Assembly (NCBI GenBank): GCA_028707105.1
Contig: JAQTUY010000024.1
Coordinates: 1 to 16,407 of the forward strand
Source: Candidatus Omnitrophota bacterium
GTDB lineage: Bacteria; Omnitrophota; Koll11; Gygaellales; JAQTUY01
Length of the DNA: 16,407 nucleotides
Reading direction: 5' to 3'
Positions within the stretch are counted from its first letter, which is position 1, and each line of letters starts with the position of its first letter. The notes below the pieces were generated by a model that saw only the letters and a list, made by a program, of their open reading frames with translations, had not been told where the DNA came from and made no database searches. The position numbers were made by a program, and so were the translations under genes. This document shows, piece after piece, positions 1 through 14,226 of this stretch.

Positions 1-1460
1 GCCTGCTGAACAGCCCTGTTGATCTCGGTCAGGATACTGGCGACCTTCATAATAAACTCTTTACCTTCCACAACTTCCCTGGAACTGCTCTCTATGGAAG
101 TTACGGCGCGGCCGGTCTCCGACTGGATGGTCTTGATCAGAGCGCCTATCTTCCTTACCGCGTCGGTAGATTCCTCGGCCAGCTTCCTGACCTCTTCGGC
201 TACGACGGCAAAACCCCTTCCCGCCTCTCCCGCGCGGGCAGCCTCAATAGCGGCGTTCAAAGCCAAAAGGTTGGTCTGGTCGGCAATAACGGTAATGGTA
301 TCGGTGATCTCTCCGATCTGCTGGGACTTCTCCCCCAGCCCCTGGATGACGCTGGTAGCGTTATTCACGGTGGAGGTCAGGCGGTTTATTTTCTCGACTG
401 CCTCCTCAATGACTATCCGTCCGGCTTCGGCTTTTTTAGTTATCTGGCTGACGCCCTGCGCGGAACTCTGGGCGTTAGAAGCGACTTGTTTTAAGGAACT
501 GGACATCTCATCGATGATCTTGTGGGTATCCTCGACCCTCTTTGCCTGGGTGGTGATACCTCTGGATATCTGCTGGATGGCGTTGGATATTTCCTGGGTG
601 GAAGCGTTTATCTCCTGGGCAGAACTTGATAATTCCTCAGCCGAAAGGGAAACATTATCGGCTGTGGACCTGACCCGGCTGACCATACTGTGCATAAAAG
701 TAATGATCCTGTTAAATGCTACGGCCAGGGCCCCTACTTCGTCATCCCCGCCCACACCGATCTTCTGGGTCAGGTCACCGGCTTTAGAAGCGAGGTTTTC
801 CGCGCCTTCAATAAGTTTCTTAACCGGATTGATCAGGGTCCTCTGCAAGAAAAAGAAGATTAGGACGCTGATGATCAATAATGACACGACCAGGGAAAGG
901 ATATTACGGTTGAGGACATCACTGATGGCATTCTCGGTGCGGAACCAATTCAGAGAAAGACAAACAGCTCCGATGACATTCCTGCCGGAAGCATTATCAA
1001 ATATGGGGACAATGCGCAGGTAGGCATCGATCCTGGAATCCCCCTTTATAACGGGCTGGAGGGCTTCGACTACTTCCTTCTTCGCGATCGCCCTGTCTAA
1101 ACCGGGTACGCTGTAAACGCTGCCTATTTTATTTCTATCTTTGCTGAATAAGACTGTGCCCCGGGAGTCAACGACAAACAAGCTCTCTATTTCCGCGGGG
1201 CTGGACAGGTCCTTGACAAAAAGTTCAAGCATCTCCTTGTCAACAGGAGCATTATTATCGGGTTGTATCGCTTTTTGCACTAAATGCGCGATGCCATTGG
1301 AGAATAGGCGGGAAGTATTCTTAGCCTCGGTCTTAAGCATCTCGGTCTGGTACTTATTTATGATCCATAACCTGACGCCGAGTATAACGATGAGGGTAAG
1401 TAATATGCACGCCAAGATCTTTGTGCCGATACTCTTATTAAATCCCCCAAAAATCTGCAT
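1..1460 (-). CDS. Methyl-accepting chemotaxis protein, C-terminus cut by window edge
   Basis: Transmembrane chemoreceptor that would signal to CheA/CheW. The frame is open from an ATG at 1460 to the window edge (about 486 codons visible, reading frame 3-1460). Visible parts: short cytoplasmic N-terminus, membrane segment at about residues 10-30, an extracytoplasmic sensor region at about 33-180 that looks Cache-like (it includes [13 protein letters not shown] and a [10 protein letters not shown] stretch), a second membrane segment at about 182-205, a HAMP domain, then a long helical signalling domain. The highly conserved hairpin tip is present ([20 protein letters not shown] followed by a [18 protein letters not shown] stretch, roughly residues 390-430). 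The start is supported by AGGAG at 1466-1470. The last stretch, perhaps 80-100 residues, lies outside. No CheA/CheW genes are in the window. Family assignment is certain; the ligand is unknown. Confidence 0.97.
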
Positions 1461-1464
1461 CCGG

Positions 1465-1515
1465 TCTCCTAGCCCACGAGGGCACACCTACGCCTTAACC
1501 AATTGCGTAGGGTGT
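1465..1515 (-). promoter_or_regulatory. Two-hairpin leader RNA before the MCP gene (copy 1)
   Basis: Reading the minus strand, hairpin 1 (1515-1484) pairs ACACCCTACGC with GCGTAGGTGT around the 11-nt loop AATTGGTTAAG: 7 bp next to the loop, one bulged C, then 3 bp. It is followed at once by hairpin 2 (1483-1472), GCCC-TCGT-GGGC, then AGGAGA (1470-1465) and the MCP ATG at 1460. The same architecture precedes the PfpI gene. There is no T tract, so it is not an intrinsic terminator. It lies in the predicted 5' UTR. Closeness of hairpin 2 to the SD suggests translational control. I do not recognise the family; that it is regulatory is an inference from two copies. Confidence 0.7.
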
Positions 1516-1539
1516 CAATATTCACAACCGTCGTATTTT

Positions 1540-1568
1540 ATAATAAGCCTTTTAAGCTAATTTGTCAA
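1540..1568 (-). promoter_or_regulatory. Sigma70-type promoter for the MCP gene
   Basis: On the minus strand TTGACA (1568-1563) is followed after 17 nt by TATTAT (1545-1540): a perfect -35 box, optimal spacing and a good -10 box. Transcription would start near 1533, giving a leader of about 73 nt that contains both hairpins of the copy 1 motif. It lies between the PfpI stop (1582-1584) and the MCP start. Confidence 0.8.
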
Positions 1569-1581
1569 GACAGATAAAAAC

Positions 1582-2190
1582 CTAATATTTCAGGGCTCTG
1601 AGTATCTCTACGCCAAATTCGACCGCGGCTGAAGGGCCGTTAGCGGTAATAATATTGCCGTCCTTCTCGACGGACCTGCCGGTATAATCGGCGCCCAGGG
1701 CTTTAAGCTCTGCCTCTTGAGAAGGGTGCACTGTAGCCCTCTTTCCGTTTAGAATGCCGGCCTTACCCAAAGTGATCGGGGCGATGCATATCGCGGCCAC
1801 TATCTTATTGAACGCGACGGCGTTGCGCGCCAGCTTATGGGCAAAGGGATTATCCCAATATTCAGTCGAACCCTCGCCGCCGATAAAGATCACGGCGTCA
1901 AAATCCCCCATATTAACATCGGTAAAAAGCATATCGGGCTTAACCCTGGCGCCGAGAGAACCCTTGGCTTCATCAAGAGTGGAAGAGGCCACCTTGACCA
2001 GGATACCCTCTTTTTCGAGGACCTGCTTGGGAGGAAAAAATTCATCATCCCTGAACTCCACGCGCGGGATTATCATCACTACTTTCTTAATGGCCGCGTC
2101 CTGGGCGTAAACGCAGGAAATAAACACTAAAGCGCAGAAACTTAGTAAAAAAGCCTGAAATCTAAACCCCGGAACTTTGATCCTCATCAT
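1582..2190 (-). CDS. Exported DJ-1/PfpI-family protein
   Basis: A 202-residue protein of the class I glutamine amidotransferase-like superfamily (DJ-1/PfpI: proteases, chaperones, glyoxalases or deglycases). The N-terminus is a clear signal peptide: positive start, hydrophobic core at about residues 13-26, and a VYA|QD signal peptidase I site after A29. The fold signature follows: E50 in RDDEFFPP (the conserved acidic residue beside the active site) and C135 in the nucleophile elbow AAICIAPI. The usual PfpI Cys-His pair is absent because Ile follows the Cys, so it is closer to the DJ-1 side. Start choice: ATG at 2190 (or 2187) follows AGGAGG at 2201-2196; a longer GTG start at 2223 would lie inside the leader hairpin and is rejected. 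Function is probably envelope stress or protein quality control, not provable here. Confidence 0.9.
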   Translation of the reverse strand: MMRIKVPGFRFQAFLLSFCALVFISCVYAQDAAIKKVVMIIPRVEFRDDEFFPPKQVLEKEGILVKVASSTLDEAKGSLGARVKPDMLFTDVNMGDFDAVIFIGGEGSTEYWDNPFAHKLARNAVAFNKIVAAICIAPITLGKAGILNGKRATVHPSQEAELKALGADYTGRSVEKDGNIITANGPSAAVEFGVEILRALKY

Positions 2191-2195
2191 GACTA

Positions 2196-2247
2196 CCTCC
2201 TCATTCACAAGAATGACACCCACGCCTTCAGCAATTGCGTGGGGTGC
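2196..2247 (-). promoter_or_regulatory. Two-hairpin leader RNA before the PfpI gene (copy 2)
   Basis: Minus strand: hairpin 1 (2247-2216) pairs GCACCCCACGC with GCGTGGGTGT around the loop AATTGCTGAAG, again 7 bp, a bulged C and 3 outer pairs (one G-T). Hairpin 2 (2215-2202) is CATTC-TTGT-GAATG, followed directly by AGGAGG (2201-2196). Compared with copy 1, the fifth pair of hairpin 1 changes from T-A to C-G, and hairpin 2 has an almost wholly different but complementary stem. In both copies five bases separate the T(C/T)GT loop from AGGAG. The 5' edge touches the acetate kinase stop codon. Confidence 0.7.
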
Positions 2248-3296
2248 TATATTATTTTATCGGCCTGACGGGCGATCATCAATTCTTCATTAGTGGGAAT
2301 GACCAGGACGCGCGGTTTCTTCTTAAAATAGGACAGGGCGTCCCGGCATATTTCGGCCCTGACATCAGCCTGATGCTCTCCGATCCCGGCGGTAAAGACC
2401 ACGGCATCGGTTCCCCCCATTATCGCGGCGTAGGCGCCGATATATTTTTTTATCCGGTGGATAAAAACCTGTATGGCCAGGCGGCAGCGCTTATTTGACG
2501 CGGATGCTTTTTCCACGGCGCGCATATCGTTGCTTAAACCGGATATCCCTTTAAGCCCGCTTTCCTTATTTAAGATGTTATCGATCTCATGGATGCTCTT
2601 TCCCTGGTTTTGCATGATATATGTCACCAGGGCCGGATCTATATCCCCGCAGCGCGTACCCATCACCAGGCCCTCAAGCGGAGTAAAACCCATGGACGTG
2701 TCCACGGGCTTGCCTTTGTCGACGGCGGTTATGCTGCAGCCGTTGCCCAGGTGGCAGGTAATGATCTTTAAACGGGATAGCGGTTTCTTTAATATCCTGG
2801 CCGCCTCATGAGCGACATACTCATGGCTTGTACCGTGGAAACCGTATCTTCTTATCCTGAACTTTTCGTAATATTCATAGGGTATGGCATAAATATAGGA
2901 GTAATCCGGCAGGGCCTGATAGAATGCGGTATCAAATACGGCCACCTGCGGCACGGAAGGCAGCAGCCTCTTACAAGCCAGGATACCCTCTAAGTTAGCC
3001 GGATTATGCAGGGGGGCAAGCTGGATGCACTGCCTGATATTTTTTATAGTCTGCTCGTTTATTAGAGCGGGTTCTTTAAATTTCTCCCCGCCGTGGACTA
3101 CGCGGTGGCCGACCACATCGATACCGTCCACCCGGGACAAAACCAATTCCACCCCCTGGTGATGATTGGCTATCTTGCTGCCTTTCTCGCCTATCTTTTC
3201 GATCAACCCCTGAGCAATGACCTTAGCCTGGGGCATAATGAACGATTTATACTTTATCGATGAGCTTCCACAGTTGATAACCAGGACTTTTTTCAT
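2247..3296 (-). CDS. ackA: Acetate kinase, short form
   Basis: Interconverts acetyl phosphate + ADP and acetate + ATP in the cytoplasm, the second step of the Pta-AckA pathway. Family motifs and catalytic residues are visible: N8 in INCGSSSIKY, R65 in GHRVVHGG, D122 in FDTAF, H154 in YGFHGTSH, R215 in GTRCGDIDP and E337 in PTNEELMIA. The protein has 349 residues against about 400 usual. The shortening is in two places, the segment between about residues 36 and 64 and the one just before PTNEE, where the usual G-I-x-L/I-D...N stretch is missing. Start: ATG at 3296, 2 nt after the pta stop; an upstream extension to 3380 would overlap pta by about 80 nt and lacks homology. Translation is probably coupled to pta. 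Confidence 0.96.
   Translation of the reverse strand: MKKVLVINCGSSSIKYKSFIMPQAKVIAQGLIEKIGEKGSKIANHHQGVELVLSRVDGIDVVGHRVVHGGEKFKEPALINEQTIKNIRQCIQLAPLHNPANLEGILACKRLLPSVPQVAVFDTAFYQALPDYSYIYAIPYEYYEKFRIRRYGFHGTSHEYVAHEAARILKKPLSRLKIITCHLGNGCSITAVDKGKPVDTSMGFTPLEGLVMGTRCGDIDPALVTYIMQNQGKSIHEIDNILNKESGLKGISGLSNDMRAVEKASASNKRCRLAIQVFIHRIKKYIGAYAAIMGGTDAVVFTAGIGEHQADVRAEICRDALSYFKKKPRVLVIPTNEELMIARQADKII
2254..2282 (-). promoter_or_regulatory. Probable promoter for the PfpI gene inside the end of ackA
   Basis: Minus strand TTGATG (2282-2277), 17 nt, then TAAAAT (2259-2254). The -10 box matches 5 of 6 and the -35 box 4 of 6 of the sigma70 consensus. Start of transcription would be near 2247, at the first base of the leader hairpin. 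It is embedded in the last codons of acetate kinase, so coding constraint may explain part of the match. Confidence 0.5.
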
Positions 3297-3298
3297 GG

Positions 3299-4231
3299 CT
3301 AGGCTTGCGCCCTTATCGCGGTTACCGCTGCGCAATCTACTATATCGTCCACCGTACAGCCGCGGGAAAGATCGCTGCATGGTTTATTCAGCCCCATGAT
3401 CAACGGGCCGAGCGCCCTGGCTTTGGCCAGCCGCTGCACCAGCTTATAACTAATGTTGCCGGAATTCAGGTCCGGGAAGATAAGAACGTTGGCTCTGCCC
3501 TGGATGGGACTGTCGGGATATTTGATCTGCGTGACCTCAGGGATGATCGCGGCATCCACCTGTAATTCTCCGTCGACCAGAAGATCCGGCTGCATCTGGC
3601 GCGCCAGGGCCAGGGCCTCTTTAACCTTATCCACAAGCCTGCCGGCGCTTGAGCCTCTGGTGGAGTAACTTAAAAAAGCTACCCGCGGAGTCAACCCTAA
3701 AACCTTTTTCGCCAGTTCCGCGGAAGCTACCGCTATACACCCCAGCTGCCTGGGATTAGGATCGGGGATAATGCCGCAATCGGCGAATACGAACGTCCCG
3801 TTGTCGCCATATTCGCAATCCGGGACAGCCATAATAAAACAACTGGCAGCTATCCCAAACCTCTCATTAATGCCCAGGCAATGTATGGCCGCCCTTGCCA
3901 CATCAGCCGTAGTATGGCTGGCCCCCGCGACGCAGCCGTCTACCACTCCGTTCCTGGCCATCATTTCGGCGATATAAAGAGGATCCTGCATGACCTGCCT
4001 TGCCTGCTCTATGGTCATACCCTTGGCTTTACGCAGTTCATAATACTGCTGGGCGTATTTTTCTTTTTCTTCTCCGGCGACCTTACCGGCGTCGACAAAA
4101 ACAACCTTGACGATCTTTTCTTTCTCCAGTATCCGGGCAGCCTCCAAAGTGCGCTCGTCTTCCATTTCAGGCAGCGCGATGGTTTTGAGGTCAGAGGCGG
4201 CCTTACGCCTGATCATGCTTATAGTATCCAT
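3299..4231 (-). CDS. pta: Phosphate acetyltransferase, catalytic domain form
   Basis: Converts acetyl-CoA + phosphate to acetyl phosphate + CoA. The 310 residues match the short, single-domain phosphotransacetylases. Visible signatures are the N-terminal ALPEMEDERTLEAARIL stretch, VDGCVAGASHTTADVARAA, FADCGIIPDPNPRQLGCIA and FLSYSTRGSSAGRLVDKV, followed by PDLLVDGELQVDAA near the CoA-binding end. There is no N-terminal BioD/DRTGG extension; that domain is encoded by the gene just upstream, with 3 nt between the two genes. The start at 4231 has AAAGGATG at 4246-4239, which lies partly in the end of the preceding gene. Gene order DRTGG protein-pta-ackA is a clean acetate module. Confidence 0.96.
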   Translation of the reverse strand: MDTISMIRRKAASDLKTIALPEMEDERTLEAARILEKEKIVKVVFVDAGKVAGEEKEKYAQQYYELRKAKGMTIEQARQVMQDPLYIAEMMARNGVVDGCVAGASHTTADVARAAIHCLGINERFGIAASCFIMAVPDCEYGDNGTFVFADCGIIPDPNPRQLGCIAVASAELAKKVLGLTPRVAFLSYSTRGSSAGRLVDKVKEALALARQMQPDLLVDGELQVDAAIIPEVTQIKYPDSPIQGRANVLIFPDLNSGNISYKLVQRLAKARALGPLIMGLNKPCSDLSRGCTVDDIVDCAAVTAIRAQA

Positions 4232-7163: not shown

Positions 7164-10100
7164 TTACTTTGCCTCCATGACCACTAACGTAATATCATCA
7201 TACTGCTCGCGGGTTGAGATAAAATTATACACCTCATCCTTTAAAGAAGCAAGTAATTGGTCGACAGGTTCAGAGCCGTGCCTGGATACTGAATCGGTAA
7301 GCCTGCTTAAGCCGTAAAGTTCTTCGCCCGGGTTACGGGCTTCGGTTATACCATCGGTATAGAGGACTACCTTGTCATTATGGCTCAATGACAGCTCGTT
7401 ATCTTCCAGGAACTCGGCTATCTCGGGGAGCATCCCGATCATAAAGCCGCCGCTCTTGATAAGCTCGACTTTCTTATCCTGGGCGCGGTAAACGATGATA
7501 TGCTCGTGGCCGGCCGAGGAATAGAGCAGTTTATTCTGCCTGGCGTCCCATTTAAAGTAAAGAAGGGTCATGAACTTCTGGCCGCCGATGTGCATCTGGA
7601 GTATCTGGTTGGTCTTAAGGAGTATCTGCTTGGGAGAAGGTTCCTCCTGGGAGAGAGTGTGGATAGCGGTCTTGGCCATGGCCATCAGCAGGCCTGCGGC
7701 AACACCCTTGCCGGAGACGTCGCCGATCACGACGGAGAGCTGGTTCTTATCGGGCAGAGGTATGAAGTCGTAATAGTCCCCTCCTATCTCCTTGGCCGGC
7801 TGCATCAGGCCCTGAACGGTAAGGCCGGGGACATTGGGAGTCTGATGAGGAAGTAAGGTCATCTGGATCTCACGTCCGAGCTTTAGTTCCTCGGCCAATC
7901 TCTCTTTTTCAACCATCTCTTTTACCAGGAAGGCGTTTTGCAGGGAGATGCCGGCCTGGGTAGCAAAAGAGTTGATCAGGTTTAAGTCCTGTTCATTAAA
8001 GGCTGCTTCAGTCAGGCGGTTATCCAGGTAGAGCAGGCCGAGGAGCTCGCCCCGCACTTTAAGAGGGGTACAGATGACGGACTTGATCTGATAAGTCTTG
8101 ATGTCCTCATCCTGATTGAGCGAAGGAGCAACCTGAGGGCTGTAAAGCAAAGACGAGACCTTGACATTAGCTTCATCTATAATGACACGGCAGAGCTTGT
8201 ATTTTTTGGAATCCAGGAGAGGGGTGATCTCCAGGCCGGCTTCTGTGCCTTGAGCGATCTTAACCTGGAGGGTCTTCTTATCCGGAGAAGATAATAACAA
8301 GAACCCTCTTTCGGCGCCGGAGACCTCGATAGCTGATGAGACTATCTTGCTTAAGAGCTCCTCTACGTCTAAGATAGAGCTTAAGTCGTGGCTGACGGAG
8401 ATAAGCGTATTCAGACGGCGCTCGACTGCCAGCCTTTCCTGGGCAGTGGCTTCTTTGGCTTCCGTCTCTTCTACTTTGATGCCCAGGGCAGCGGCGGTCC
8501 TCTGGATATAGAGCTTGGCGCCGATCTCTTTAAAGACGTTATAGGCTTCAAGGTATCTTTGCTTGGCCTGGTCGGGCTTACCGATTGATTCCAGGAATTT
8601 GGCGTATTCAAAGAGCGAGCGGCCGAGTTCGTAGCGGCGGTAAAAACGTTTGCAATGGTCGATGCTCTTTAGAAAATACCCTTCGGCTTTTTTGTTACGA
8701 CCCACTAACGCGTTATATTTAGCATTGACCCGCAACGCGCCGCCTTTGTGGTTGGGCCAGGTAATATTCCTTACGGTAGACCATATACAGGCATTCCTGA
8801 TTTTTTTGAGTTCCTGCTTTTTTTGTTTTTTATCTAATGAAGGCAACACGGACTTGTATTTTTCAATATAGGCGTCAGCCAAATGATAATAAAGATAAAC
8901 AATATAGTCGTAGGCAAAAGTCGCCCCCTGCTCCCTGTCTATTTTTTTAGCCTTTTCCAAATATTTGACCGCGTCTTCATATTTGCCCTGTTCTAAATTA
9001 TTATATCCGTAATCCGCGTTGACCCGACAAGCCACAAACCAGATCTTCTCATGTTCGCTTATGGCTATACTGTCCTTCTGTAATGCTTCAGCCTTATCTA
9101 ATTCGCCTTTTTCAACAAGGGCGCGGGAGGCAAGGTCCTCGGCGCAGCAGATACCGTGGGCATCCCTGTTTTTTACGCTTATATCTAAATAGACGCTGTG
9201 GTGTTCCAGCGAATTCGCGTATTCTCCCATATAAAAACATATTAATCCTGACAACTGATGCATAATCGCGAATTCCCACATATCGCCGATTTTTTGATTT
9301 AAATTAACTGCCTGAGTTGCATAATCCAGACTTTTCCGGTAATTGTCCAATCCTCCTTCCCACATATGAAGATAACCAAACCATCCTGTCGTCCTGGCTA
9401 TTCCCCATTCATAATTTTTATCCTTAAGAATAGCCATCGCATTATCCATAATGCCGATCGCTCTTTTGAATAACGACATGTTGCCTATTAACGTCCCATA
9501 CGTGCTGATACTCATACCTAATTCTTTGGACTTTCCTATTCTTGAGCGGCTCAGGTTCATCGTTCTATACGCTATCCAAAGAAACTTCTCCAGGCTGGAA
9601 ACCATAACCATCCATTCTGCCGCGATGTAAGCTGAAATTATCTCAATATCCTCCGGCTTGACAGGTTTGCCTTCCCTGCGTAAAGCCAGTTTAGGAAATA
9701 TACACTGCGATATATAGACAATAAATTCTTTCAATATGGAAAATACTGCCTGCCCTGTTGTATTAGGATATTTCTCTCCCAAGAATGAGACCCCTTTAGC
9801 TAAAGCATTACCGCCGGATGCAAAATCCCCTTTTCTAAAATAAGCGCTGCTGACAAAACGGTATAATTTGGCTTTGTCTAACGGCTTCTCTTTTAACCTG
9901 AGTATCTCCTCTACTGTTTTTATTACCTCATCGCTCCTGCCAAGACTAAGATACACTTCGGTCAACTCTTCTTTAGCCTCTACCCACTGCGGGCTATTCT
10001 TCTGCCCCTTATCTTCAAGGATACCGATGCTTAAGTTATAATACTTGATAGCTTCTTCATTAGCATAGTTCTGCTTGGCTTTGTGGGCTGCGGGCAGAGC

Positions 10101-12287
10101 GTATTGCAAAGATTTTTCTTTATTGCCGGCTTCGGTATAGTGGTGGGCAAGGTCGAAGAGGATGGGTTCGGTATTATCCTTGTAGAGCTCTTCCAGGCTC
10201 TGGGCGATCTTAAGATGGAGCTCTTGTAACTGCTCCTTGGGGACTTTGGCGTAGAAGGCATCGCGGATGCGGTCATGGACGAATAAAACTTTTCCCCTTT
10301 CCATGCTCTTCTCAAGAAGTTGAAGGGAAATACATTCATCGATCAGGGTGATAAGGTTTTCTTCGGATAACTTTGTAAGGTTAATCAGTAATTTTAAAGG
10401 GAACTCCCTCCCCACTACCGAGGCGTAAGAAAGCAGGTTCAGTTTCCTGGGTTCCAAAAGGTCTATCCTGCGCAATACTACATCTACGATGTTGGAAGAG
10501 ATAACTACCTGGCTAAGCTTCTCCTGGTCGATCAACCAATGCCTGTTGGCCTCATCGTAGATAAGGGCTTTTTCTTCAACCAATTGACGGGTGATCTCCA
10601 GGGAGAAGAAGGGATTGCCTTTGGATTTATCCAGGATGAATTTAGCCAGGTCACCTAAGCGGTTCTCATCTTCCAACAGCAGTTCAGAGAGGAATTTAGT
10701 CAGGCGCTTCTGGTCAAAAAGGACCAGGGGTATCTCTTCTATGGGGTATTGCTTGGATTTAGCTTCCTGGATTATCTTATAGAGCGAGTGGGTCTCGGTG
10801 ACCTCGTTATCCCGGAAGGTGCCGAGTACAAGAAGGGGGAAGTTCTCGATTTCCGCGGTGATTTCTTCAAGGAGCGATAAAGTGGCTTCATCCGACCATT
10901 GCAGGTCATCTAAGTAAAGGACAAAAGGTTCATCCCTGGTGCCGAGGTTGAGAAAAAAACGGGAAGCCACTACAAGGAAACGACGATGTTCCTTTTCAGG
11001 ATCCAGAGCTACCAGAGGCGGCTGTTTACCAAGGACTTCCTCCATGGCGGGGTTGATCTTAAGGATGATTTCGCCCAACTGGCCCAAGACTTCCTGCATC
11101 CGCTTGGCGGTATTTTCTTTTTCCTGAGGTTGAGCCTTTTTATATTTATCGATGTATTCATTCAGGATATCCCGGAAGGGCTGGTAGGGAGTCTTGTTTT
11201 CCTGGGAGAAGCAGCGGCCGGAGACCATGGTCCCTTTTTGTTCATAGACATAGGAGCGCATCTCATCGACTAAGCGGGATTTGCCTCGTCCGGCCTCGCC
11301 TTTGACTAAAGTAACCTTGCCGGAGCTGACTTTAGTCTTTTCAAAGGCGTCTTTTAGTTTATTGAACTCTTCTTCCCGTCCGATCAGGCGGGTACGGAAG
11401 AGAAGTTTTTTTAAACGGTCCTGTTTGCCGATGACAAAAGAAGTGTTACCGGATTTAAAAAGCTCAAAATCTGCGACTAACCCTTTAGCAGTCTGATACC
11501 TTGCTTCTGGTTCTTTGGAGAGAAGCTTCAAGACTATCTGCTCCAGGACCTCGGGGATCTGGGGATTAAGTCTTCGGGGTGGAGTCGGGAGCTTAGCCAT
11601 ATGCTGGTGGAGAAGCTCACCGATAGTTGAGCCTTTAAAAGGGGCTTCCCCTGTTAAGAGCTGATAGAAGATTATGCCCAGGGAATAAAGGTCGGAGCGT
11701 TCATCCGAGGCCCTTTTCATGATCCCGGACTGCTCAGGTGAGATGTAGGAGAATACTGCCAGGACATCCTGGGGGCTTTTTATCTGGGTATATTCTATAA
11801 GATGGGACAGTCCTAAGTCCAAGCCTTTGATCTGAATGCCGCCGGGGTTGGGCTGGATGATCACGTTAGATGGCCTGAGGTCTAAATGCAGAAGGTTCTG
11901 ATTATGGGCGTATTCCAAGGCGCTGGCGATCTGATAAGCGACCTCTACAGCCTCAAGAGTAGAGAATTTTTTGTTTTCCTGGAAGAACTTTAAGAGCGAA
12001 CTGCCCTGGACCAGCTCCATAACCAGGTAGTTCTGGCCCTCAAAAGAGCCCAGGTCTAAGATCTGGGCGATATAGGGATGCTTAAAAGCAAAGGTCTGGT
12101 TGATCTCTCTTTTGAAGCGGATAAGGTCTTCGGGGCGGCTGGAGGTGATAATGGGCTTTAATACCTTGAGGGCTACTTCCTGGTTGGTCTTGGCATCCAG
12201 GGCTTTGTAGGTCGTAGCAAGGACGCCTTCGCAAAGCAGGGATTGGATGGCGTGGCGGTTATTCAGGGTCTGGTGAAGAAGATCCAT
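7164..12287 (-). CDS. Multidomain Ser/Thr kinase - AAA ATPase - TPR - GAF - SpoIIE/PP2C phosphatase
   Basis: A 1707-residue soluble signalling protein. Domain order: Ser/Thr kinase (about 10-275), AAA_16/STAND-like ATPase (about 300-600), helical TPR-like repeats (about 690-1270), GAF (about 1297-1452) and a SpoIIE/PP2C-type phosphatase (about 1466-1707). Kinase landmarks: K41 in VALKVLK, HLDLRPSN (134-141, with D136 and N141), DLG at 157-159, SPEQ in place of APE. The glycine loop is degenerate (CEGVLATTY). ATPase: Walker A GEAGRGKS (330-337) and Walker B FVLYLDDLQW (455-464). Phosphatase: GGDYYDF at about 1500, IGDVSGKG, LYTDGITEARN at about 1643 and YDDITLVV near the end supply the metal-binding acids. 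It resembles kinases that end in a histidine kinase, but here the output is a phosphatase. The SD abuts the ATG. The middle differs in base composition from both ends. Confidence 0.95.
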   Translation of the reverse strand: MDLLHQTLNNRHAIQSLLCEGVLATTYKALDAKTNQEVALKVLKPIITSSRPEDLIRFKREINQTFAFKHPYIAQILDLGSFEGQNYLVMELVQGSSLLKFFQENKKFSTLEAVEVAYQIASALEYAHNQNLLHLDLRPSNVIIQPNPGGIQIKGLDLGLSHLIEYTQIKSPQDVLAVFSYISPEQSGIMKRASDERSDLYSLGIIFYQLLTGEAPFKGSTIGELLHQHMAKLPTPPRRLNPQIPEVLEQIVLKLLSKEPEARYQTAKGLVADFELFKSGNTSFVIGKQDRLKKLLFRTRLIGREEEFNKLKDAFEKTKVSSGKVTLVKGEAGRGKSRLVDEMRSYVYEQKGTMVSGRCFSQENKTPYQPFRDILNEYIDKYKKAQPQEKENTAKRMQEVLGQLGEIILKINPAMEEVLGKQPPLVALDPEKEHRRFLVVASRFFLNLGTRDEPFVLYLDDLQWSDEATLSLLEEITAEIENFPLLVLGTFRDNEVTETHSLYKIIQEAKSKQYPIEEIPLVLFDQKRLTKFLSELLLEDENRLGDLAKFILDKSKGNPFFSLEITRQLVEEKALIYDEANRHWLIDQEKLSQVVISSNIVDVVLRRIDLLEPRKLNLLSYASVVGREFPLKLLINLTKLSEENLITLIDECISLQLLEKSMERGKVLFVHDRIRDAFYAKVPKEQLQELHLKIAQSLEELYKDNTEPILFDLAHHYTEAGNKEKSLQYALPAAHKAKQNYANEEAIKYYNLSIGILEDKGQKNSPQWVEAKEELTEVYLSLGRSDEVIKTVEEILRLKEKPLDKAKLYRFVSSAYFRKGDFASGGNALAKGVSFLGEKYPNTTGQAVFSILKEFIVYISQCIFPKLALRREGKPVKPEDIEIISAYIAAEWMVMVSSLEKFLWIAYRTMNLSRSRIGKSKELGMSISTYGTLIGNMSLFKRAIGIMDNAMAILKDKNYEWGIARTTGWFGYLHMWEGGLDNYRKSLDYATQAVNLNQKIGDMWEFAIMHQLSGLICFYMGEYANSLEHHSVYLDISVKNRDAHGICCAEDLASRALVEKGELDKAEALQKDSIAISEHEKIWFVACRVNADYGYNNLEQGKYEDAVKYLEKAKKIDREQGATFAYDYIVYLYYHLADAYIEKYKSVLPSLDKKQKKQELKKIRNACIWSTVRNITWPNHKGGALRVNAKYNALVGRNKKAEGYFLKSIDHCKRFYRRYELGRSLFEYAKFLESIGKPDQAKQRYLEAYNVFKEIGAKLYIQRTAAALGIKVEETEAKEATAQERLAVERRLNTLISVSHDLSSILDVEELLSKIVSSAIEVSGAERGFLLLSSPDKKTLQVKIAQGTEAGLEITPLLDSKKYKLCRVIIDEANVKVSSLLYSPQVAPSLNQDEDIKTYQIKSVICTPLKVRGELLGLLYLDNRLTEAAFNEQDLNLINSFATQAGISLQNAFLVKEMVEKERLAEELKLGREIQMTLLPHQTPNVPGLTVQGLMQPAKEIGGDYYDFIPLPDKNQLSVVIGDVSGKGVAAGLLMAMAKTAIHTLSQEEPSPKQILLKTNQILQMHIGGQKFMTLLYFKWDARQNKLLYSSAGHEHIIVYRAQDKKVELIKSGGFMIGMLPEIAEFLEDNELSLSHNDKVVLYTDGITEARNPGEELYGLSRLTDSVSRHGSEPVDQLLASLKDEVYNFISTREQYDDITLVVMEAK

Positions 12288-12324: not shown

Positions 12325-12882
12325 TTATTCCCAGCTTAACTCAAATTCACAACAATCATCGCCGTTGACGCGGCATTTGGTCTCTTTGACATTCAGGTTC
12401 TTCGCTCCGGACATCTCCAGGACCTTCGCGAAATAACCCAACAAAACATTACAAAATGCCTTGTGAAAATCCGGAAAATTAGTAACCTTACCCTTTACGA
12501 ACTTATCATTGGTCTGTTCTATCTCCAGATCGCCGGCATCGTGCAAAGTCCGCCAGGCTAGCCCGGCTTTCCTGATAACGGCGTGCGGGTTACCGACTTC
12601 CAGAAAAACCTTATAAAGCCCGGAAAATGTTTCATCCGCCTCAAAGCGGCCGATGTCGCTGCACAAGGCGTAATCCCCCTTGCCGAATAGCTTATCCGTT
12701 GTTGCTAAAAGGCTGATATAAGCCTTCATGGGATAGAGAGTAACCGGATTAAGCTTACCCGTGATCACATCCCGGTCCTCGGGAGACATGGCTTCCAGGA
12801 CTTTCGCGAAACCTTCGTCTTTATAATTTTGCTTGATGTATCCTACCGCGGCAAGAAACGCTATTCCCCTGTAATTACTCAT
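12325..12882 (-). CDS. V4R-like (4-vinyl reductase domain) sensor protein, paralogue B
   Basis: A 185-residue soluble protein, aligning without gaps to paralogue A (13637-14194) at about 55% identity by my hand count. The C-terminus KETKCRVNGDDCCEFEL resembles the end of V4R domains (C...G..C.F.V), a fold related to heme-NO-binding and other small-molecule sensors; the N-terminal half recalls the DUF2378-type proteins of signalling-rich bacteria. There is no signal peptide or membrane segment. Conserved features of both copies: HDAG, GDY..C, two C-terminal Cys clusters. The start at 12882 has AAGGAGG at a good distance. It is the first gene of the putative long operon and precedes the kinase by 37 nt, so it may supply its input. 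Ligand unknown; family name moderately sure. Confidence 0.75.
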   Translation of the reverse strand: MSNYRGIAFLAAVGYIKQNYKDEGFAKVLEAMSPEDRDVITGKLNPVTLYPMKAYISLLATTDKLFGKGDYALCSDIGRFEADETFSGLYKVFLEVGNPHAVIRKAGLAWRTLHDAGDLEIEQTNDKFVKGKVTNFPDFHKAFCNVLLGYFAKVLEMSGAKNLNVKETKCRVNGDDCCEFELSWE

Positions 12883-12925
12883 CGCCCACCCCTCCTTATA
12901 ATATTACCGCCAAAACTATGCGCTA

Positions 12926-12955
12926 ATTATACTCCCTATCGATTACGGAAATCAA
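12926..12955 (-). promoter_or_regulatory. Promoter for V4R paralogue B and the downstream operon
   Basis: Minus strand TTGATT (12955-12950), 18 nt, then a perfect TATAAT (12931-12926), 43 nt before the ATG. The -35 box overlaps the stop codon of the HAD gene. It would let the long operon be expressed independently of the genes upstream. Confidence 0.7.
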
Positions 12956-13629
12956 GGATTATTAACCGGTTGAACCAAGTGGAGTGATCTTCTTAATTGC
13001 GAAAAGGTTTTACATATGATATCGGCTTTTTTAAGATATTTCTCCGGCAGGGAAGTCTCCAGCGCCGCGCAAAAAAGCCCGGCTTTCTTGGCAGCCTCAA
13101 TGCCCAGAGGCGCGTTTTCTATGACTAGCGCCTCTTCAGGCAATATCTTAAGCCCTTTCAGGGCTTTTAAAAACGGCTCGGGATGGGGCTTGCCGTGAGC
13201 GACCTCATCGCCGGTTACGGTAACGTCAAACAGCACGAACAATTCTTTATGTAATATCTTCAGCGCTTCATGCCTGGATGTGCCGGTAACCAGGCCAAGT
13301 AAGAACTTTCTTCTTTTTAAATAGCGTAAATACGGACGCGAGCCCTTGACAAACCGGGTCTTAACGATCCGCTTGAACAATATTTCCTTTTTTAATAAAA
13401 TATCCTTGGCCTGGGCCAGGCTTAATTTTATCCCCCGCTCCTTAGAAAGCTCCATTAAAGTAGAGAGCCCGGGCTGGCCTTCTCTCAGGTAGACGTCGTA
13501 GCAATCCACTTTTATCCCGGCTGCTTTAAGCGTCTCCATCCAGGCGTCAAAATGATAGGGCATAGTATTGGTGATAACGCCATCCATATCAAATATCACC
13601 GCTTTTACCCTTCGTAACAGCCTGCTCAT
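12952..13629 (-). CDS. HAD-superfamily hydrolase, beta-phosphoglucomutase/phosphatase-like
   Basis: A 225-residue subfamily IA HAD phosphohydrolase. Motif I is FDMDGVI with nucleophile D14 and acid D16; motif II is VTGTSR (T115); motif III Lys is K147 in HGKPHPEPF; motif IV is VIENAPLGIEAA with E171. A helical cap lies between motifs I and II (about residues 20-95). The substrate is probably a small sugar phosphate or phosphoglycolate-like molecule; the sequence does not decide. Start: ATG at 13629 after AGGAG (GGAG then AAC), 7 nt downstream of the V4R paralogue A stop; a longer start at 13674 would overlap that gene and lies before the HAD fold begins. It sits between two sensor paralogues. 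Confidence 0.93.
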   Translation of the reverse strand: MSRLLRRVKAVIFDMDGVITNTMPYHFDAWMETLKAAGIKVDCYDVYLREGQPGLSTLMELSKERGIKLSLAQAKDILLKKEILFKRIVKTRFVKGSRPYLRYLKRRKFLLGLVTGTSRHEALKILHKELFVLFDVTVTGDEVAHGKPHPEPFLKALKGLKILPEEALVIENAPLGIEAAKKAGLFCAALETSLPEKYLKKADIICKTFSQLRRSLHLVQPVNNP

Positions 13630-13636
13630 CGTTCTC

Positions 13637-14194
13637 CTATTCCCATTTAACCTCATATTCACAGCAATCATCACCCTGACAGCGACACTTGGTTTCCTTA
13701 ATGCTCACGTTTTTAGCGCCGCAGAGTTCTAAAACCTTGGTAAAGTACCCGGCCAGATCCACGCAAAAAGACTTATGATAATCCGGAAAATCCGTGATCG
13801 TCCCCTTGACATATTTATCTCCGGCTTGCTCGATCTTAAGCTCGCCGGCGTCATGCACCATTTTCCAGGCCAGCCCGGCGCGGCTGATTACAAAATACGG
13901 ATTGGCTATATCCAGGAATATCTTATAAAGCCCGGTAAAGGTATCCCCGGCCTCAAAATATCCTATCTGGCGGCAGATCTCATAATCACCCGCTCCGAAG
14001 ATCTTATCGGCGGCAACGCTAAAATTTATGAATACCCTCGCCGGATAAAAACTCATCGGATTCAGGCTGCCTCCCGCTATCTGCCTATCCTGCGCCTCCA
14101 GCGAATCAAGGACCCTTGCCAGGCCCTCATCCTGGTATTTTTCTCTGATAAATTTTACCGCCGCGATTATGGATGCCCCTCTTAAGTTGCTCAT
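13637..14194 (-). CDS. V4R-like (4-vinyl reductase domain) sensor protein, paralogue A
   Basis: A 185-residue protein of the same length and layout as paralogue B. The C-terminus KETKCRCQGDDCCEYEV has Cys at about 170, 172, 177 and 178; C172 is absent in B. Shared blocks include RAGLAW/KAGLAW, HDAG, DFPD(Y/F)HK and LGAKN-type CGAKN/SGAKN. Start: ATG at 14194 gives the same N-terminus (MSN.RG) as paralogue B and leaves 6 nt from AGGGG, while the ATG at 14200 touches the SD. Probably a cytoplasmic small-molecule or redox sensor (inference). It is cotranscribed with the HAD gene downstream. Confidence 0.75.
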   Translation of the reverse strand: MSNLRGASIIAAVKFIREKYQDEGLARVLDSLEAQDRQIAGGSLNPMSFYPARVFINFSVAADKIFGAGDYEICRQIGYFEAGDTFTGLYKIFLDIANPYFVISRAGLAWKMVHDAGELKIEQAGDKYVKGTITDFPDYHKSFCVDLAGYFTKVLELCGAKNVSIKETKCRCQGDDCCEYEVKWE

Positions 14195-14226
14195 TGTCAT
14201 CCCCTTTATTTTTTAATGCAGCGCTT

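Follow-up and report, generated by a model that had tools for sequence, protein, structure and literature searches.

Two neighbouring genes on a contig of Candidatus Omnitrophota, one for a PfpI/DJ-1 protein and the other for a chemoreceptor (MCP), are each preceded by a pair of small hairpins that ends at the Shine-Dalgarno (SD) site. The question raised by this arrangement is whether the two stretches are copies of one RNA element that controls both genes, or whether a DNA-binding site, a passive message structure or a duplicated repeat would account for them equally well. The window, by which we mean the whole analysed stretch of 16,407 nt, was examined for the structure, conservation and surroundings of these leaders.

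Genomic context

All genes in the window are read on the minus strand. They encode a UvrD-type helicase, a HAD phosphatase between two V4R proteins, a 1707-aa fusion protein, a DUF6268 outer-membrane-type protein, an acyltransferase, a thioredoxin, an AAA/DRTGG protein, and finally Pta, AckA, PfpI and MCP. Nine proteins were named from Pfam; the helicase, HAD, fusion and thioredoxin names were read from the sequence. The two genes that follow the leaders are:

1582..2190, minus strand: PfpI/DJ-1 gene, start at ATG 2190, product of 202 aa with a signal-like N-terminal segment (Pfam)
3..1460, minus strand: MCP gene (HAMP and MCPsignal), running off the window, with its start at ATG 1460 placed by the SD (Pfam)

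The PfpI start is consistent with that of its closest relative (P0001), a protein of 99% identity named Candidatus Omnitrophota among at least 120 matches in a protein search, which puts the host in that phylum; a further relative (P0002) is 76% identical. Six of these matches were listed with organism names, four of them Omnitrophota/Omnitrophica and two Candidatus Kuenenia at 54-55% identity. Judged by eye, the N-terminal signal-like segment is present here and in many of the 60 relatives inspected; the PfpI/DJ-1 family is usually considered intracellular.

Several other features of the neighbourhood deserve mention in their own right. The PfpI leader follows directly on the ackA and pta genes, and ackA appears short, with 349 aa from ATG 3296 (2247-3296, minus strand) and a Pfam match split into two stretches; acetate kinases are usually about 400 aa long. 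The 1707-aa protein (7164-12287, minus strand) appears to combine a Ser/Thr kinase, an ATPase, a GAF domain and a PP2C-type phosphatase in one chain. The two V4R-domain proteins on either side of the HAD phosphatase (12325-14200, minus strand) also give weak DUF2378 matches, and their genes look like paralogues.

Two leaders of common design

An earlier note on this DNA had described two copies with a shared first hairpin, and both were found where it placed them on the minus strand, in the same orientation and 732 bases apart. Copy A (2247-2196) occupies the short gap between ackA and PfpI, and copy B (1515-1466) the gap between PfpI and MCP. Their parts are as follows:

2216..2247, minus strand: copy A hairpin 1, 11-base loop on a 10-bp stem with one unpaired C (sequence and fold)
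2202..2215, minus strand: copy A hairpin 2, CATTC-TTGT-GAATG (5 bp; sequence and fold)
2196..2201, minus strand: copy A Shine-Dalgarno AGGAGG, immediately 3' of hairpin 2, 5 bases to the ATG (sequence)
1484..1515, minus strand: copy B hairpin 1, 11-base loop on a 10-bp stem with one unpaired C (sequence and fold)
1472..1483, minus strand: copy B hairpin 2, GCCC-TCGT-GGGC (4 bp; sequence and fold)
1466..1470, minus strand: copy B Shine-Dalgarno AGGAG, 1 base 3' of hairpin 2, 5 bases to the ATG (sequence)

The outermost G of hairpin 1 in copy A (2247) is the final base of the ackA stop codon. In both copies, hairpin 1 carries the loop AATTG[C/G]T[G/T]AAG and an unpaired C on its 5' side. The ten pairs and the unpaired C agree with the earlier description of this hairpin as 7 bp, a bulged C and 3 bp, although that register is only one of several, as the bulge lies in a run of C and the minimum-energy and centroid folds disagree on its position. 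Hairpin 1 is identical at 27 of 32 bases between the copies and hairpin 2 is kept mainly in shape. The T[CT]GT loop of hairpin 2 is read in both copies, each time with AGGAG starting five bases past the loop, just as had been claimed. The further claim that hairpin 2 abuts the SD holds directly for copy A, whereas one base intervenes in copy B. Hairpin 1 and AGGAG are 14 (A) or 13 (B) bases apart, and the distance from AGGAG to the ATG is identical. The unequal conservation of the two hairpins suggests that hairpin 1 may be read by its sequence and hairpin 2 by its shape.

Covariation between the copies

Across the 15 pairs of the two-row alignment, all 29 countable cells hold standard pairs and none is broken. 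Four pairs are changed on both sides, one in hairpin 1 and three in hairpin 2, so that the compensatory change reported for hairpin 1 and the pairing kept in hairpin 2 despite its altered sequence (CATTC/GAATG versus GCCC/GGGC) both stand. When partners were shifted by 1-3 columns, pairing fell to 28-50%. When letters were shuffled between the two rows, which makes a weak control, the observed pairing was reached in 39 of 500 trials, and the covariation count by itself is thus weak with n = 2 sequences. The differences at kept pairs are all transitions (9/9), while the other two differing stem columns, one a gap and one a transversion, make up the single pair lost in copy B. In these two sequences, then, helices beside a gene start are kept through compensatory change, as is expected of a structured cis-acting leader.

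Inverted repeats with symmetric change would equally suit the site of a dimeric protein, and the repeat CCYACGC-N11-GCGTRGG might, as DNA, be the target of a dimer that regulates both genes, with a good promoter lying just 5' of copy B. However, the arms are asymmetric by one extra C, and the outer pairing needs that C to be bulged, which has meaning in RNA but not in a duplex; the unpaired C therefore suits RNA. The shape of hairpin 2 has also been retained while its sequence shifted by transitions. A change from A-T to G-C by way of G-T is a route that an RNA helix allows and that a DNA site does not need, and RNA is accordingly favored.

Chance expectation

Among same-strand matches of 31 bases in the window, the leader pair ranks first (27/31), where 60 dinucleotide shuffles gave at most 22-24; the second-best same-strand repeat (26/31) lies in the two V4R genes at an offset of 1312. 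A pattern drawn post hoc from both copies occurs twice in the window and in none of 200 shuffles. The loop of hairpin 1 alone, with one mismatch allowed, occurs at chance level (6 found, 5.6 expected).

Given gap lengths of 14 and 13 bases and thresholds set post hoc, a random sequence would hold a hairpin with at least 4 Watson-Crick pairs and a 4-base loop with a probability of 0.004 (A) or 0.007 (B). These values become 0.020 (A) and 0.039 (B) if G-T pairs are allowed, 0.014 per copy for loops of 3-6 bases, and 0.068 per copy with both relaxations. As two-hairpin units of 46 and 45 bases, neither copy was matched in folding by any of 200 shuffles (z -2.6 and -2.8). Hairpin 1 alone was equalled by 10 (A) and 5 (B) of 200, and once the flanks are included little excess is left (z -1.4 and -1.3), as 18 and 19 of 200 shuffles fold at least equally well. 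Taken as they read, the leaders of both genes are a genuine two-copy structured RNA whose helices show signs of selection, and the leader is probably a working control element.

Promoter-like sites and transcription

The earlier note had placed a promoter with 17-nt spacing before each copy. The scan returned these sites:

1540..1568, minus strand: promoter-like site 5' of copy B, TTGACA-17-TATTAT, 11/12 (promoter scan)
2254..2282, minus strand: weak promoter-like site 5' of copy A, TTGATG-17-TAAAAT, 9/12, within the ackA coding sequence (promoter scan)

The claim holds well for copy B, but for copy A the site is weak and lies inside ackA. The region holds three promoter-like sites where 1.9 are expected, and the one before copy A may be due to chance. 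It is thus uncertain whether copy A is transcribed as a separate leader; it could instead be an internal part of a joint ackA-PfpI transcript. Hairpin 1 lies at distances from the predicted promoters that differ by 18 bases between the copies, the copy A promoter being weak. The spacing is constant to the SD and not to the predicted promoters, which favors RNA over a DNA operator, albeit with the copy A promoter itself in doubt. Taken with the asymmetric arms, this makes the DNA operator a quite improbable explanation.

An intrinsic terminator was considered and rejected, as there is no T run and none of the four predicted terminator sites falls at the element.

Access to the ribosome-binding site

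The fold predictions leave four of the five AGGAG bases of copy B about 90% unpaired. In copy A, with the gene start included, four of five are predicted to be about 90% paired with a coding stretch, a pairing unmatched in copy B. Inspection by eye revealed no alternative fold, common to the two copies, in which the SD would be masked. A closing helix in copy B (CGGTT/GACCG) was rejected since it has no counterpart in copy A, and an RNA thermometer that masks the SD was rejected because the pairs of hairpin 2 do not involve the SD. A translated upstream open reading frame was likewise set aside, as the GTGs in frame with the ATGs are 33 and 27 bases 5' of them, at differing positions in the element.

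These predictions bear on the idea that the leader acts constitutively, its two stacked hairpins protecting the 5' end of the message and keeping the SD open for ribosome loading with no regulator involved. The hairpins are stable and the SD is mostly open in copy B, as that idea would have it. Yet the SD of copy A is predicted to be mostly paired, and a pure stabilizer would leave unexplained why hairpin 1 has kept its sequence (27/32) while hairpin 2 has changed more. We regard this explanation as improbable.

Search for further copies

The view that the element stands outside known RNA classes was borne out by the Rfam 15 covariance models, which return no match there at E values up to 5. 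The Rfam matches in the window, bxd_1 (E 0.17) and GP20-b (E 1.9), are both below the gathering score, and neither overlaps the element. A tRNA-like or T-box element was rejected because ARAGORN found no tRNA fold and Rfam no T-box match; the loop of copy B resembles a D-loop, and that of copy A is without its GG.

No third copy was found in the 16.4-kb window, where the next match of a covariance model built from the two copies (R1) scores 9.2 bits (E 0.47). An exact pattern of 21 fixed bases, which would miss diverged members, has a single match in 84,980 species genomes, in the coding frame of a Methylococcaceae MAG (L001). It lies inside a 451-aa open frame (2151-3506) that we take to be nqrA, with neighbouring frames that appear to resemble other Nqr subunits, and for this reason we regard it as a chance match. 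An exact pattern of 19 fixed bases has no matches in viral contigs, and one of 15 bases has at least 120. When ranked by stem extension, the 15-base matches amounted to 123 (at least 120 viral, 2 in the window and 1 in L001), of which the best 25 were inspected. Three viral rows (L086, L015 and L006, the last two with identical letters) equal the window's score of 7, and no AGGAG lies within 40 bases 3' of the hairpin in any of the three; the remaining 98 of the 123 score 2 or less.

In 200 genomes of another phylum, which we take to be Pseudomonadota, model R1 reached E <= 0.01 in four, with about 2 expected by chance, under stricter filters and with at most 28 candidates scored per listed genome. 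In three of the four, the upper part of hairpin 1 was aligned only as a skipped stretch, and the fourth (L127) has a similar loop with broken stem pairs. This search gave only background. Viral contigs held no protein relatives of PfpI, of the 1707-aa kinase or of an alignment of 10 PfpI proteins out of the at least 120 matches, and an 851-base query spanning both copies found no DNA similarity in plasmids. A copy A query returned eight phage records, all weak partial matches with E 0.6 or above.

The suggestion that the pair is a leader that was duplicated and then drifted fits the origin of the two copies, which are likely to have arisen by duplication whichever reading holds, but the drift was probably not free, as all 29 pair cells were kept. 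Another reading is that the copies are a palindromic repeat or mobile element of REP/MITE type, or come from a recent local duplication, with no regulatory role. Their distance of 732 bases and their common orientation speak for it. Nevertheless, both copies end at an SD with the same spacing, the SD-proximal hairpin has diverged almost only through transitions that keep its pairs, and there is neither a third copy in the 16.4 kb nor an exact match outside a coding frame in the genomes searched. It is improbable that a repeat or duplication with no regulatory role explains the pair.

Proposed mechanism

The two copies, their pairing kept with compensatory change and their constant distance to the SD are read directly from the DNA. 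The reading that we prefer, and hold tentatively, is that of a two-copy cis-acting leader RNA in which hairpin 1 is bound by a trans-acting factor and hairpin 2 serves as a spacer. Hairpin 1 has kept its sequence and hairpin 2 mainly its shape, so the former is likely the recognized part, through its unpaired C and conserved loop. Hairpin 2 would then be a structural spacer that places hairpin 1 beside the SD. As no masking of the SD common to both copies was seen, the simplest account would be a factor that recognizes hairpin 1 and thereby either impedes or assists the ribosome. Such a factor, most likely an RNA-binding protein, may alter ribosome access or the life of the message, and PfpI and MCP would thereby respond together. 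We infer that the leaders are transcribed and bound, that the binding acts on translation, and in which direction it does so.

It is also conceivable that the bulge and 11-base loop of hairpin 1, with hairpin 2, form an aptamer through which a small molecule or ion gates ribosome access. The element lies immediately 5' of the SD in two genes, its loop and bulge are conserved in sequence, and small two-hairpin riboswitches such as guanidine-II offer precedents. Against this, Rfam gives no class for the element at E values up to 5, inspection by eye showed the SD to have no conserved switch partner, and the exact pattern revealed no wide spread, while ligand-binding riboswitches usually recur in many genomes. 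We therefore consider a riboswitch rather unlikely. For the factor-bound leader that we prefer, the seemingly narrow distribution of the element would favor a protein over a metabolite, and a lineage-restricted leader RNA is our best reading of that distribution.

As a new leader RNA with no Rfam match, the element is a good and well-founded candidate, though two copies do not make a class. It is doubtful that it represents a so far undescribed class of sensing RNA leaders in Omnitrophota, by which a chemoreceptor and a DJ-1/PfpI protein beside ackA-pta would be tied to one signal. A full-text search of the open PMC literature gave no paper on a riboswitch in Omnitrophota or candidate phylum OP3, and its matches for PfpI with riboswitch were unrelated by title. 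If further copies exist, the element would be a cis-regulatory RNA from a phylum on which that search found no riboswitch papers, and would link chemotaxis and a stress-type protein through one signal.

Relation to known systems

The guanidine-II (mini-ykkC) riboswitch consists of two small tandem hairpins near the ribosome-binding site with ACGR loops. The leader shares the two small tandem hairpins and their closeness to the ribosome-binding site, but its loops are AATTGNTNAAG and TNGT (more closely, AATTG[CG]T[GT]AAG and T[TC]GT) in place of ACGR, and it has no Rfam match. The iron-responsive element, to which aconitase/IRP binds, has a six-base CAGUGN loop and an unpaired C five pairs below it. 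The leader likewise has an unpaired C on the 5' side, with five pairs above it in one among several possible registers. However, its loop is of 11 bases and differs from CAGUGN in letters as well as length, and again there is no Rfam match.

A bulged hairpin with a conserved loop beside the SD also recalls the translational operators of phage coat proteins and ribosomal proteins; this likeness is one of form. Finally, small leader RNAs found by intergenic comparison, among them the folE motif (THF-II), are likewise simple structured elements beside a gene start (PMC6800512, PMC2864571), whereas the present element has no Rfam match and precedes PfpI and MCP genes.
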